A stretch of DNA of 64,000 bases, from positions 1 through 64,000 of the forward strand of contig JAFGLY010000125.1 in assembly GCA_016927815.1 (NCBI GenBank), read 5' to 3'. A program made the translations under genes and the position numbers. The notes beneath the pieces are model-generated. The model had not been told where the DNA came from. It did no database searches and saw only the letters and a program-made list of their open reading frames with translations. Shown here one piece after another: positions 19,051 through 23,816 of the stretch. Position 1 is the first letter of the stretch. Every line of letters starts with the position of its first letter. This stretch comes from Deltaproteobacteria bacterium. GTDB taxonomy: Bacteria > Myxococcota_A > UBA796 > JAFGLY01.

Positions 19051-20295
19051 TCATGGTTCCCGGGGATCGAGCCCGATCCTCGGCGGGGTGGGTATCGGGG
19101 GCGCCGGGTTCGGGCCAGCCGGAGCCAGGCCGCCGAGAAGCGCCTCTGCGGCCCGTGCCGATGCGCCGGGGGCCCCCAGCCGTGCCCGGACCTCGGCGAG
19201 GTCGGTCCCTACCCCGGGATCCTCGGCCACGCGCAACAGGTCCTCGGCCAGGGCGCCCGGGTCGAGCCGCTGGAGGTGCTCGGGGACCCCGCGCCGTCCG
19301 ATCAGGATGTTCGGCAGGGCCATGTGCTCGAGGTTCCGGGCGACCCGCCTCCCCACGGCCCAGGTGACCGGGTGGACCGCATAGGCCACCACCATCGGCA
19401 CCCCCAGCACGCTGCACTCCAGGGTGGCCGTGCCCGAGGCCACCAGCGCGGCGGCGGCCTCCTCGACGGCCCCGGGCAGCCCATCCGTGATGCGAACGCC
19501 GCTGGCCTCGGCACGGGCGAGGAGCGCGCGGGGGACCGTGTTGGCCCGACCCAGCGTGAACCGGGCGCCCGGCACGCGGGCCCGCACGACCTCGACGGCC
19601 TCCAGGAAGACCGGGAGGAGCCGGCGGACCTCTTGGACGCGGGATCCAGGAAGGAGCGCGAACGTCCTCGGGTCCGGTGCCCGGCGCACCCCGGCCAGGC
19701 GGTCCAGGATGGGATGGCCCACCCAGAGCGCGTCGAGTCCGGTTCCCGCGTACAAGGCCGGCTCGAAGGGAAAGAGGCAGAGGAGCTGGTGGAGAGAGGC
19801 CGCCACCCGGGTCACCCGTCCCGGGCGCCAGGCCCACACCTGGGGGCTCACGTACCCGACGGTCCGGATGCCGAGCCGCCGCGCCCGCCGCGCCAGTGGG
19901 AGGTGAAAGTCGGGTCCGTCCACCACGAGCAACAGATCGGCACCCTCCCGGAGGGCCCTGAGCAGTGCCGCCCGCGCCGCCCGGAGCGGGCCGAGGCGAC
20001 CCGCGATCTCCACGAGCCCGGCCGAGGCCACGTCCTCCACCCGGGCCAGGGGTCGGACCCCCGCGCCCCTCATGGCCGGACCGGCCAGGCCGCTCGCCTC
20101 CACCGGTCCCACGTTCCGAAGGGCCGTCACGAGCTCCGCGGCCAGGGAATCCCCCGACGCCTCCACCGCCGATACCACCAGGCCGAGCGGACGAGCGCCC
20201 CTGGCCCGACCCACCGGACGGTCGCGAGGCGGCGCGTCGCACGAGGACGCCACGGCGCCGACGTCGATGCCTCCGTGGACGACGGGGGGGGTCAT
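19051..20295 (-). CDS. lpxB: Lipid-A-disaccharide synthase
   Basis: The protein has 414 aa. This GT19 enzyme joins UDP-2,3-diacylglucosamine and lipid X. The family features are SAVEASGDSLAAEL near the N terminus (usual start GExSGD), YVSPQVWAWRPGR, LLPGSRVQE and ASGTATLEC. A GAGAGG site precedes the ATG at 20295. About 35 residues at the N terminus are extra and poorly ordered, so a later start remains possible. The gene follows the selenoprotein candidate after 16 nt. Confidence 0.95.
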   Translation of the reverse strand: MTPPVVHGGIDVGAVASSCDAPPRDRPVGRARGARPLGLVVSAVEASGDSLAAELVTALRNVGPVEASGLAGPAMRGAGVRPLARVEDVASAGLVEIAGRLGPLRAARAALLRALREGADLLLVVDGPDFHLPLARRARRLGIRTVGYVSPQVWAWRPGRVTRVAASLHQLLCLFPFEPALYAGTGLDALWVGHPILDRLAGVRRAPDPRTFALLPGSRVQEVRRLLPVFLEAVEVVRARVPGARFTLGRANTVPRALLARAEASGVRITDGLPGAVEEAAAALVASGTATLECSVLGVPMVVAYAVHPVTWAVGRRVARNLEHMALPNILIGRRGVPEHLQRLDPGALAEDLLRVAEDPGVGTDLAEVRARLGAPGASARAAEALLGGLAPAGPNPAPPIPTPPRIGLDPREP

Positions 20296-20311: not shown

Positions 20312-20587
20312 CTACCCGGGCGGATCCCCGCCCGGGCGCAGGTCGGGGGGCAGGCCCTCGGCTTCCCAGGCGCGTTCCTTTCGATTCCGCTCGCGTGCCC
20401 TCCGGATCTCGCTCACCACGAGCCATCCTGCCAGCACGCCCATCGCACCCATGTACCATGGGTTTCCCGTGAGGCCTCAAGCACCGTGGCATCCGATGAA
20501 GGTCGCGTAGAGCACGCCGAGACCCCCACCCAGGACGACCCCGATGGCCCGGACGCCGGCTCGAGAGGCCAGGGAGGATCCGCTCAT
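20312..20587 (-). CDS. Candidate selenoprotein: DUF6132-like small membrane protein with in-frame TGA (Sec-37)
   Basis: The frame runs from ATG 20587, which overlaps the previous stop (ATGA), to TAG 20312. It has 92 codons with one internal TGA at 20479-20477. Before it the protein reads ...GVLYATFIGCHGA; after it GLTGNPWYMGAMGVLAGWLV, then a charged Arg/Glu tail. From memory, DUF6132 proteins have a helix, a GC-x4-C-x-IT-x-NP loop and a second helix. Here the loop is GC-HGA-[TGA]-GLTGNP, so TGA falls near the second Cys, with one residue fewer between. About 80% of codons after the TGA end in G or C, so coding character continues. A hairpin just downstream fits a SECIS. The alternatives are a pseudogene, a sequencing error, or a separate 46-aa ORF starting at 20452. 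Confidence 0.8.
20441..20476 (-). promoter_or_regulatory. Candidate bacterial SECIS hairpin
   Basis: In the mRNA sense, a perfect stem ACCCATG/CATGGGT with loop GTA (20463-20447) starts 14 nt after the TGA. The loop begins at nucleotide 21. Bacterial SECIS elements have a short apical loop with G among its first two bases, roughly 16-37 nt from the UGA; this fits on both counts. Outer pairing is weaker (GCC with GGC). The stem lies inside the reading frame, as expected for bacteria. Confidence 0.7.
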
Positions 20588-21177
20588 GGCGCGGGAGCCC
20601 TCAGGTTGTCGGCCTGATCGGCATCCTCGGGCGACCACACCTCCACGAGGTCGGCGGCCGCGTGGTAGAGGGCGGCGGATCCGGACAGGTGCAGCTCCGC
20701 GCCCCCACGGGCGTACGCAGCCTGCACCTCGGTCTCGTCGAACGGTTCCACGCCCACCGCCCGGGCGGCCTCCAGCTCCAGGGCGCCGCGCTGGGCGTCC
20801 ACCCGCTCCGGCAACTCCACGCTTCCGAGGTAGACGGGCATCTGGGTCAGGTCGGGCCGGCCCGGCACGATCAGCACGACACGGCCCTCCGAGGCGGCGA
20901 TGTTCACGCGTTCCGCCGGCGTGTCTCCGACGTACAGGACCGGCGAGGCCACCTGGCGCAGCCGGGCGAGCTTGGGGTCCACCTCCACCACCACGATGAG
21001 CCCTTCGGTCACGGGCGGGTGCCCGCGCATCCACGGGTAGTCGTGCGGCCGATCGAGCCGGAAGGGACGGGCGTAGAGCAGGGCGCACACCGCGTCCCCG
21101 TCGTCCACCGGCTCCACGGGAGGGGGGTTGGCCAGGCCCAGCGGCACCAGGAGGCCAAAGAGGAAAGAGGCGTTCAT
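20584..21177 (-). CDS. Secreted hypothetical protein
   Basis: The protein has 197 aa. A short signal peptide (NASFLFGLLVPLGLA) is followed by an alpha/beta-like domain without motifs I recognise. The ATG at 21177 overlaps the stop of the hydrolase lipoprotein (ATGA), and its own stop overlaps the ATG of the selenoprotein candidate. The three genes are therefore probably one translationally coupled unit. The listed 1000-aa ORF is mostly the shadow of the hydrolase gene. Confidence 0.65.
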   Translation of the reverse strand: MNASFLFGLLVPLGLANPPPVEPVDDGDAVCALLYARPFRLDRPHDYPWMRGHPPVTEGLIVVVEVDPKLARLRQVASPVLYVGDTPAERVNIAASEGRVVLIVPGRPDLTQMPVYLGSVELPERVDAQRGALELEAARAVGVEPFDETEVQAAYARGGAELHLSGSAALYHAAADLVEVWSPEDADQADNLRAPAP

Positions 21178-23816
21178 GGGACGATCTCCAGGTCGTCGAA
21201 CCCGATGCGGCCCAGGGCGGATCCCACATCCGCGCCGACGTCGAAGCGCACCTCCACGATGTGAGTGAGGTCGAGGGGCGTACCGTCCGCCTGGAACTCG
21301 ATCAGGCGCAGGCGGACGGTGGCGAACTCGTTGGCCCAGCCGCTGCCGCTGCCCAGCCCGTCGCGCTTGTAGGGGGTGGTCAGCCCGCCCACCACGCCGA
21401 AGTCGATGGAGGACCAGGCGCCCGATCCGTCCACGAGGGTGACCGTGAACGAGAGCGGTCCGTCGAGCGCCACCGTCCAGGGGTGTCGGGTCTGCTGGGC
21501 CGCGCGGAGGGACAGGAACCCGTACCCGCTCCAGTCCCCGAATCCCTCGGGGATCTCGAAGGAGAGCGAGTTCGCGTCCCCCTCGCTCCACTCGAGGATG
21601 CCCCCCCGGGTGGCATCCACCGTGTCCACGGCCTGGGTCATGCCGTTGTAGGGATCGCCCTCGGTCCACCCGAGGACCGAGTCGCGGTCGTCCAGCTTCC
21701 CCTCCCGCAGCACGTCCCCGTCGTAGGAGACGGAACCCCCGCAGTCCGAGATGGCGATGTCGCTGCCGTTCTGGAAACCCTCGAGCACGATCAGATCCCC
21801 CTCCCGGTCCACCCGGTACTGGTTCGCCACGACCGTGGTCTCGGCCAGGCTGGATCCGTGAAGATCGTCGTACAAGCGCGAGAGGTACTCCATGAGCAGT
21901 GGTTCGCCCTCGACACGGCCCTCCAGCAGGGCCAGCCACGCCGCCTTCGCCACGGCCTGGGCCTCCTCGGGTCCGATGAGATCGGGCCCCGTGCCATCGT
22001 CGAAGCCGCAGCAGTTGAAGTCGTTGTGGGATGCGCCCTGGACGTAGGTGACGTGCGTGTCGCCCGTGGCGGCCTGGGCGATGCGGAAGAACTGGCACTG
22101 CACGCAGTCGGGCCCACCGGTGACGTCGCCATCGGCCGCGCCCGCGATGAGGTGGTACGGTCGGTCGTGGGGATCGGACTCCGTGACGTCGTTGAACACG
22201 GTGGGGGCGATGCTGCTGATGAGCACGATGTCGCTGGGGGAGTAGGCGGTGACCTCGATGTCTCCCTCCACGAGGCGGTCGTAGGCCCTGACCACGCCCT
22301 CGCCCCCCCGGCTGTGCCCGATCCAGACGATGCGGTGGCCGTCCACGTGGCCCAGGAGCACGCCCCCCTCGATGTTGTCGAGGTTCTCGAGGAAGTAGTC
22401 CGTGTTCAGGAGCGTGGTGGTGGATGCCGTCTCGATCCCCGGCCCGGTGTTGTTCTGGTGGGACATCACCACGTAGCCGTGGGAGGCGAGGTGCTCGCCC
22501 AGGTAGTCGTACCAGGTGTAGTCGTGCCCGTTGCCGTGGGACACCACCACCAGCGGCACCTGCCCCATCGTGCCGATGTCCTGGGGGTAGTAGAGGACCT
22601 GCCCGAGCCAGGATCCCCCCGAGTACTGCGCCATCACCACCTTGTGGGGCCCCTCGGCGGACAGGTCCTTCACGGCGGCCAGGCCCACGGTATCGCCCCC
22701 GTCGAGGAGATCTCCGGGGCCGTAGGCGCCGTCCCGGTCGAAGTCGAGGACCACGTCGAGCGGGCGCGCCACCTGCCCGTCGGGGTCGAGGGTGCTCCAG
22801 ACCTCCACGACGTTGGAGGCCACGGAGTCCCCCGCCACGGTCAGGGTCTCGACCGTGCCGGTCACATCCACGAGGGTGGGATCCGAGGCCCAGGCCTCGG
22901 CCTCCCGGTGCTCCACCACGTAGACGTCGGCGGCCAGGCCCACGCGATCCGCGAACCGGAAGGGGTCGAGGGCCACCCAGGCCGGACCTGTGGCATTGAA
23001 AGCATCCACGTAGGAGAACCAGGGGAACCCATCCCGCGGCACCCCCGAGAGGCCCGCCCAGTCCACCACTCGGACGTTCACGGTGTCCGACACCTCCCCA
23101 CAGTCGCCGAGCCGGAAGGTCGCGGTGACCTGGCCCTCCGCGGCGGCCTCTCCACCGACGTAGAGGGTCGCGGGGAGCTCGCCTTGGGCAAAGGAAGCGG
23201 GCGTGGCGAGCGCCAGGCCGTCCCCGTCGAACAGCGACACCCCCGAGGCATCGACGATCACCATGGCTCCGGGCGTCGAGGACGTGAGGGTGAGGGCTCG
23301 CATCCGCACCAGGGCGAGCGGGCTGTGGAGGGGCGCCGCCGCGACGACGATGCCCGGATCCTCCTCGTCCTCCTCGCCAACGACGGCGTCCGCGAGGTCC
23401 ACGTGGCAAGGCGCGCAGCCCACGCCCTCGATGCAGATGTCCTCCCCGAAGCACGTCTCCCGAGAGACCACGTCCCCGGCCTCGTCGCAGGTGACGGCCT
23501 CCTCGTCGATGCAGAGGACCCAGTTCGGCGTGAGGTCGCACTCGTCGGGCAGCTTCATGCAGCCCTGCCCCTCGACACACTCCCATCCCTCCTCGCAGGT
23601 CTCCCGCGAGGCTACGTCCCCGGCTTCGTCGCAGTGGACGGCATCCCCATCGATGCAGACGATCCAGCCCGGCGGCACCTCGTCGCAGGGGTCGGTGGGG
23701 CCGCTGTCCTCCGGAAGACCGGTCTCTTGGGGCGTTTCACCGTCGTCGCAGGCGGCTGCCAGCAGGGCGAGGGCGAGGAGGATCGGGATCGGTGGGCGCA
23801 TGCGTCTCGGTAACAT
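21174..23816 (-). CDS. Large lipoprotein with alpha/beta-hydrolase (lipase/esterase-like) domain
   Basis: The protein has 880 aa. Its signal peptide ends in the lipobox LLAAAC. The next 110 residues hold two Cys-rich repeats (PPGWIVCIDGDAVHCDEAGDV and PNWVLCIDEEAVTCDEAGDV), a myxobacteria-style secreted module. A central alpha/beta-hydrolase domain shows an oxyanion region (VVSHGNGHDYTWYDYLG), the nucleophile elbow WIGHSRGGEG and a late His (QGASHNDFNCCG). The C-terminal third is beta-rich (WTVALDGPLSFTVTLVDGSG), perhaps a carbohydrate- or lipid-binding module. Its substrate is unknown. The 5' end overlaps lpxD by 80 bp; starting at the second ATG (23801) would cut this to 65. Confidence 0.8.
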   Translation of the reverse strand: MLPRRMRPPIPILLALALLAAACDDGETPQETGLPEDSGPTDPCDEVPPGWIVCIDGDAVHCDEAGDVASRETCEEGWECVEGQGCMKLPDECDLTPNWVLCIDEEAVTCDEAGDVVSRETCFGEDICIEGVGCAPCHVDLADAVVGEEDEEDPGIVVAAAPLHSPLALVRMRALTLTSSTPGAMVIVDASGVSLFDGDGLALATPASFAQGELPATLYVGGEAAAEGQVTATFRLGDCGEVSDTVNVRVVDWAGLSGVPRDGFPWFSYVDAFNATGPAWVALDPFRFADRVGLAADVYVVEHREAEAWASDPTLVDVTGTVETLTVAGDSVASNVVEVWSTLDPDGQVARPLDVVLDFDRDGAYGPGDLLDGGDTVGLAAVKDLSAEGPHKVVMAQYSGGSWLGQVLYYPQDIGTMGQVPLVVVSHGNGHDYTWYDYLGEHLASHGYVVMSHQNNTGPGIETASTTTLLNTDYFLENLDNIEGGVLLGHVDGHRIVWIGHSRGGEGVVRAYDRLVEGDIEVTAYSPSDIVLISSIAPTVFNDVTESDPHDRPYHLIAGAADGDVTGGPDCVQCQFFRIAQAATGDTHVTYVQGASHNDFNCCGFDDGTGPDLIGPEEAQAVAKAAWLALLEGRVEGEPLLMEYLSRLYDDLHGSSLAETTVVANQYRVDREGDLIVLEGFQNGSDIAISDCGGSVSYDGDVLREGKLDDRDSVLGWTEGDPYNGMTQAVDTVDATRGGILEWSEGDANSLSFEIPEGFGDWSGYGFLSLRAAQQTRHPWTVALDGPLSFTVTLVDGSGAWSSIDFGVVGGLTTPYKRDGLGSGSGWANEFATVRLRLIEFQADGTPLDLTHIVEVRFDVGADVGSALGRIGFDDLEIVP

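Follow-up and report, generated by a model that had tools for sequence, protein, structure and literature searches.

The window, the 64,000-nucleotide stretch of DNA analysed here, carries on its minus strand a gene for a small two-helix membrane protein that is very likely a selenoprotein, with the in-frame TGA at codon 37 read as selenocysteine (Sec). This assignment is inferred from sequence comparison, there being no selenium data, and Sec insertion is supported because the recoded site is found in ten genomes, a hairpin downstream of it is conserved, and selA, selB and selD are present. The protein would serve as a small relay in the membrane, within a reducing pathway linked to thioredoxin, a function which, given Sec, we consider as likely to be wrong as right, with a similar balance applying to the statement as a whole, in which Sec insertion and a thiol/selenol relay are combined.

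The window gene

The features of the gene and its immediate neighbours are listed in Table 1. The read-through product, MSGSSLASRAGVRAIGVVLGGGLGVLYATFIGCHGAUGLTGNPWYMGAMGVLAGWLVVSEIRRARERNRKERAWEAEGLPPDLRPGGDPPG, contains the loop GC-HGA-U-GLTGNPW, with Cys at codon 33 and Sec at codon 37. The preliminary description of this locus, made from the sequence alone, had proposed a candidate selenoprotein at 20312-20587 with a TGA near a conserved Cys; the observation is confirmed and the selenoprotein reading supported. The coordinates held, as did a single frame of 92 codons with one TGA (91 codons and a terminal TAG, the TGA at 20479-20477), a start codon overlapping the upstream stop as ATGA, and coding-type third-position GC of about 80% continuing past the TGA (0.83 before, 0.75 after). 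The strand, which had not been stated, is the minus strand, the plus-strand reading being unrelated, and the remark that standard callers give only a 36-aa fragment is consistent with gene finders cutting the gene at the UGA.

The gene lies within a run with coaX, ompH, lpxD and lpxB, and an Rfam search at the gene gave no match. The pattern GGNTGYCAYN6TGAGGNVTNAC occurs in only 2 of 379 genomes of the phylum, those being the source genome and the sole other searched genome of its family, with both matches lying in homologous genes in the same gene order; the TGA-interrupted frame is therefore more than chance. The coaX-ompH-lpxD-lpxB run also holds, at 21174-23816 on the minus strand, a gene whose 880-aa product has a PETase-like hydrolase domain (PF12740, 38.0 bits), at a place where the family mate (L053) has just a thioredoxin gene.

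Table 1. Positions of the window gene, its recoded site and its adjoining genes, in window coordinates.
Feature	Position	Strand	Remarks
Gene for Sec-form, DUF6132-like two-helix membrane protein (Sec very likely)	20312..20587	-	91 codons + TAG
In-frame TGA, codon 37, very likely read as selenocysteine	20477..20479	-	In alignment, matches a TGA in nine other genomes and the second Cys of the Cys forms
Cys33 codon, presumed partner of Sec37	20489..20491	-	Invariant in four Sec forms (alignment A1) and 18 Cys forms (alignment A2)
Putative SECIS hairpin, ACCCAU-GGUAC-AUGGGU	20447..20463	-	Same place in 8/10 Sec genes, 0/40 Cys genes
Directly upstream gene, ATGA overlap	20584..21177	-	197 aa, no Pfam family
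lpxB, directly downstream	19051..20295	-	PF02684, 228 bits; likewise directly downstream in L053

Relatives and family assignment

An in-frame TGA is present at one homologous site in ten genomes, that of the window and nine others, from at least two phyla, and these ten forms were compared with 40 Cys forms. Among 284 genomes of the phylum, a search returned Cys-type homologues and one further TGA form, from the sole other searched genome of the same family. A DNA pattern scan of public genome contigs gave eight stretches, of which three are real, namely that same family mate (L053, titled uncultured proteobacterium), a groundwater ‘Deltaproteobacteria’ bin (L054) and Candidatus Raymondbacteria (L058). 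The remaining five (L052, L055, L056, L057 and L059) are chance matches, and a degenerate-peptide scan of public genome contigs found no relative. The window protein, L053, L054 and L058 have the motif GCHxxUG[IL]TxNP in common, and a profile of these four, run over 168 genomes of the phylum of the Raymondbacteria genome, brought in a further six TGA forms, L085 to L090, in which five to seven residues separate Cys from Sec and the motif closes as U-x-[LM]-T-x-N-P-W. Many rows marked ‘1 TGA’ were Cys forms that simply end in a TGA stop; these were excluded from the Sec count.

In all ten Sec forms the TGA aligns with the second, invariant Cys of the Cys-type DUF6132 proteins, with the protein sequence conserved after the TGA and closed by proper stops. 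Alignment with hhalign of the four-Sec-form profile to a Cys-form profile (99.4%, E 4.2e-21) likewise places Sec on the second Cys. Homologues with Cys at the TGA site, which the preliminary description had proposed to look for, were found.

Membership of DUF6132, also proposed there, held in part. The window protein gives no match to DUF6132 (PF19628) in Pfam at E up to 10 and so falls below the cut-off; its link to the family comes from its relatives, with three Cys forms scoring 33.9-37.2 bits and the Sec form L087, its Sec read as Cys, scoring 42.1 bits against a cut-off of 23.2. Through these relatives the window protein is homologous to DUF6132 proteins that pass the cut-off. The proposed C-x3-U redox pair also held only in part, as anywhere from 3 to 7 residues lie between C and U in the Sec forms, and what stays constant is U-x-[ILM]-T-x-N-P. 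In a tree of 50 short sequences, L085 to L090 form one clade (99/100), and the tree does not resolve one origin of Sec from several. The Cys form L081 (genome G382) reads GCHSGGC; its first Cys is followed by His, as is invariably the case in the GCHxxUG Sec forms, and it is possibly an intermediate.

The hairpin downstream of the TGA

The window hairpin begins 13 nt downstream of the TGA and consists of the stem ACCCAUG/CAUGGGU with a GUA loop, the stem reaching 7 bp if the G-C by the loop also pairs; the perfect 7-bp stem with a GUA loop of the preliminary description held, with the start measured one nucleotide nearer than its 14 nt. Taken alone, this hairpin has a z of -0.96 against dinucleotide shuffles and a P of about 0.11 against synonymous recoding; it is not significant by itself, and its significance comes only through its relatives. 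A hairpin lies at an equal distance in L053 (ACCCGU-GGGUC-ACGGGU), and L085 to L090 carry AUCCCU-GGUC-AGGGAU, with a GGGC loop in L088. Among the eight hairpins two stem positions are altered on both sides and no pair is broken, the pairs having been read by eye because the automatic alignment was made without loop gaps. At least 6 bp form at the fixed place in 8 of the 10 Sec genes, compared with at most 3 bp in the 40 Cys genes, including 11 with NPW (Fisher 8e-8), whilst the hairpin is absent at that place from L054 and L058.

Because the place of the hairpin had been named earlier on the window sequence only, the remaining sequences serve to test it. Which loop sizes to permit was decided after the relatives had been seen, and L085 to L090 are closely related to one another. 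The loops of the Sec-form hairpins lie 19-20 nt from the UGA, inside the range of 16-37 nt given for bacterial SECIS loops (PMC10778597). In E. coli, the fdhF loop to which SelB binds is GGUC. The window protein, L053 and L085 to L090, all eight, have a Gly at two or three residues past NPW, which none of the 11 Cys forms with NPW has; its codon contributes to the 3′ arm of the hairpin, and it is possible that the RNA hairpin dictates this Gly.

Selenocysteine machinery

The source genome encodes selA (497 bits), selB (313 bits) and selD (367 bits), all above curated cut-offs, with selD at 75172-76095 on the same contig as the window. Of the four sel genes that the preliminary description had suggested seeking in the genome, selC alone was not found there, whether by a tRNA-Sec model search (150 of 864 candidates scored, in a draft 97.3% complete), by a strict selC pattern, which had no match, or in the stretches around selA, selB and selD, which hold no tRNA-Sec. 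The RF01852 matches in this genome were, where checked, tRNA-Ser, tRNA-Leu and others, not tRNA-Sec.

selA is present in 9 of 10 Sec-form genomes versus 19 of 40 Cys-form genomes (P 0.016) and, within the phylum of the Raymondbacteria genome, in 6/7 versus 4/15 (P 0.015), with related genomes treated as independent in these counts. One Sec-form genome (G418) has no selA match. In four other Sec-form genomes (G415, G420, G286 and G416), selA has a tRNA-Sec gene nearby. G415 has two full-length selA genes (L097 and L098) on different contigs with a tRNA-Sec gene near each, so that either the Sec system is duplicated or the bin is mixed.

Gene neighbours and proposed function

A thioredoxin gene is the usual neighbour of the Sec forms, with a gene for a WCGPC thioredoxin directly upstream in 7 of the 10 Sec genes and in both Sec groups (L053, L058, L085 to L088 and L090). 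No thioredoxin gene lies beside the window gene; the family mate L053 has one, in a gene order as in the window. Thioredoxin also often adjoins the Cys forms, several of which have a DsbD_TM gene downstream, and some adjoin rhodanese (L040, L078) or ArsR-type regulators (L070, L077, L078 and L083). The AlphaFold2 model, built from four sequences only (pLDDT 74), shows two helices joined by the Cys-Sec loop, and in most forms the charges place this loop outside. Searches with Foldseek and against PDB sequences yielded nothing of use.

In the mechanism we propose, the UGA would be translated as Sec by the SelA/SelB/SelD pathway, directed by the SECIS hairpin just downstream, to give a 91-residue hairpin of two membrane helices with Cys33 and Sec37 in the connecting loop. 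By the positive-inside rule both ends would lie in the cytoplasm and the loop would face outward, an orientation that is inferred. Sec37 would occupy the place of the second conserved Cys of DUF6132, and the Cys33/Sec37 pair would most likely cycle between the thiol/selenol and selenenylsulfide states, the protein serving as a small membrane relay for thioredoxin-linked reduction. Redox cycling and the direction of electron flow, like Sec insertion itself, are inferences.

Several findings count against this explanation, namely the failure to find selC, the lack of a selA match in G418 and of the hairpin at its place in L054 and L058, the weak statistics of the window hairpin on its own, the small number of sequences behind the model, and the window gene's lack of a thioredoxin neighbour. 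Furthermore, a thioredoxin with no evident export signal would be cytosolic, opposite the predicted position of the loop, which speaks against the relay. A bolder reading, which is no more than possible, is that of a minimal membrane thiol-selenol relay passing reducing equivalents from cytosolic thioredoxin to the outward-facing side of the membrane, in a previously unlisted family, with Sec perhaps gained more than once within DUF6132.

Alternative explanations

The main functional rival accepts Sec insertion and holds that the Cys-Sec pair handles sulfur, selenium or metal species, such as persulfide, thiosulfate, arsenic or mercury, rather than passing electrons from protein to protein. 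It is favoured by the rhodanese and ArsR-type neighbours of some Cys forms, by the ArsP-type permease adjoining L085, and by the existence of small metal-moving membrane proteins with Cys/Sec pairs (MerT, which PMC13188914 lists as a selenoprotein). Against it, plain thioredoxin is the commonest neighbour of the Sec forms (7/10) and no transporter family is matched, and we judge it more likely to be wrong than right.

Decoding of the TGA as an ordinary amino acid, either Cys or Trp, through a suppressor or a different genetic code, is suggested by the failure to find selC in the source genome; it is very unlikely given the presence of selA, selB and selD, the conserved SECIS-like hairpin specific to the TGA forms, and neighbouring genes that read normally with TGA as a stop. 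A sequencing error or nonsense mutation, leaving the gene truncated or dead, could be entertained for a draft assembly in 216 contigs assessed without reads, and is very improbable given a TGA common to ten genomes, conserved protein after it and proper stops.

Relation to known families

Among the nearest known systems are the Cys-form DUF6132 proteins (Pfam PF19628, function unknown), which have the same two helices around a GC...C-x-IT-x-NP loop and match at the profile level (E 4.2e-21). The Sec forms differ in having Sec in place of the second Cys, a shorter spacing between the pair, and the SECIS hairpin that the Cys forms lack. An in-frame UGA aligned with the Cys of homologues, a SECIS-like hairpin and Sec genes in the genome are also features of known bacterial selenoprotein families. 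The DsbD/CcdA transmembrane thiol reductases are alike in proposed role only, carrying thioredoxin reducing equivalents through membrane Cys residues; DsbD_TM genes adjoin several Cys forms, but the window protein has two helices only and no DsbD_TM match. The Sec form of the MerT-type mercuric transport protein, a listed selenoprotein (PMC13188914), is also a small membrane protein with a Cys/Sec pair, however the window protein does not match the MerT Pfam family.

The preliminary description could not tell whether this Sec form had been described. The 2026 inventory in PMC13188914, which covers 119 families and subfamilies of prokaryotic selenoproteins, has no DUF6132 or like entry; the groundwater MAG survey cited there as a source of new candidates (Deng et al. 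2026, Cell Rep 45:116760) was not covered, and an earlier listing is not excluded. NCBIfam models gave no match, and a literature text search for DUF6132 returned a single paper, on an unrelated subject.

Most characterised selenoproteins have a thioredoxin-like fold (PMC13188914), and the family, if the reading is true, would add a small membrane-embedded one to the selenoproteome, easily missed because gene callers cut the gene at the UGA. The contrast between Sec and Cys forms, together with the thioredoxin neighbour, would supply a redox hypothesis, open to testing, for a domain whose function is unknown. Some genes adjoining Sec-DUF6132 encode proteins of kinds that are in the selenoprotein inventory, these being the ArsP-type permease at L085, an FmdB-type zinc ribbon protein at L088 and, identified by eye, an FAD-dependent disulfide reductase-like protein at L086.
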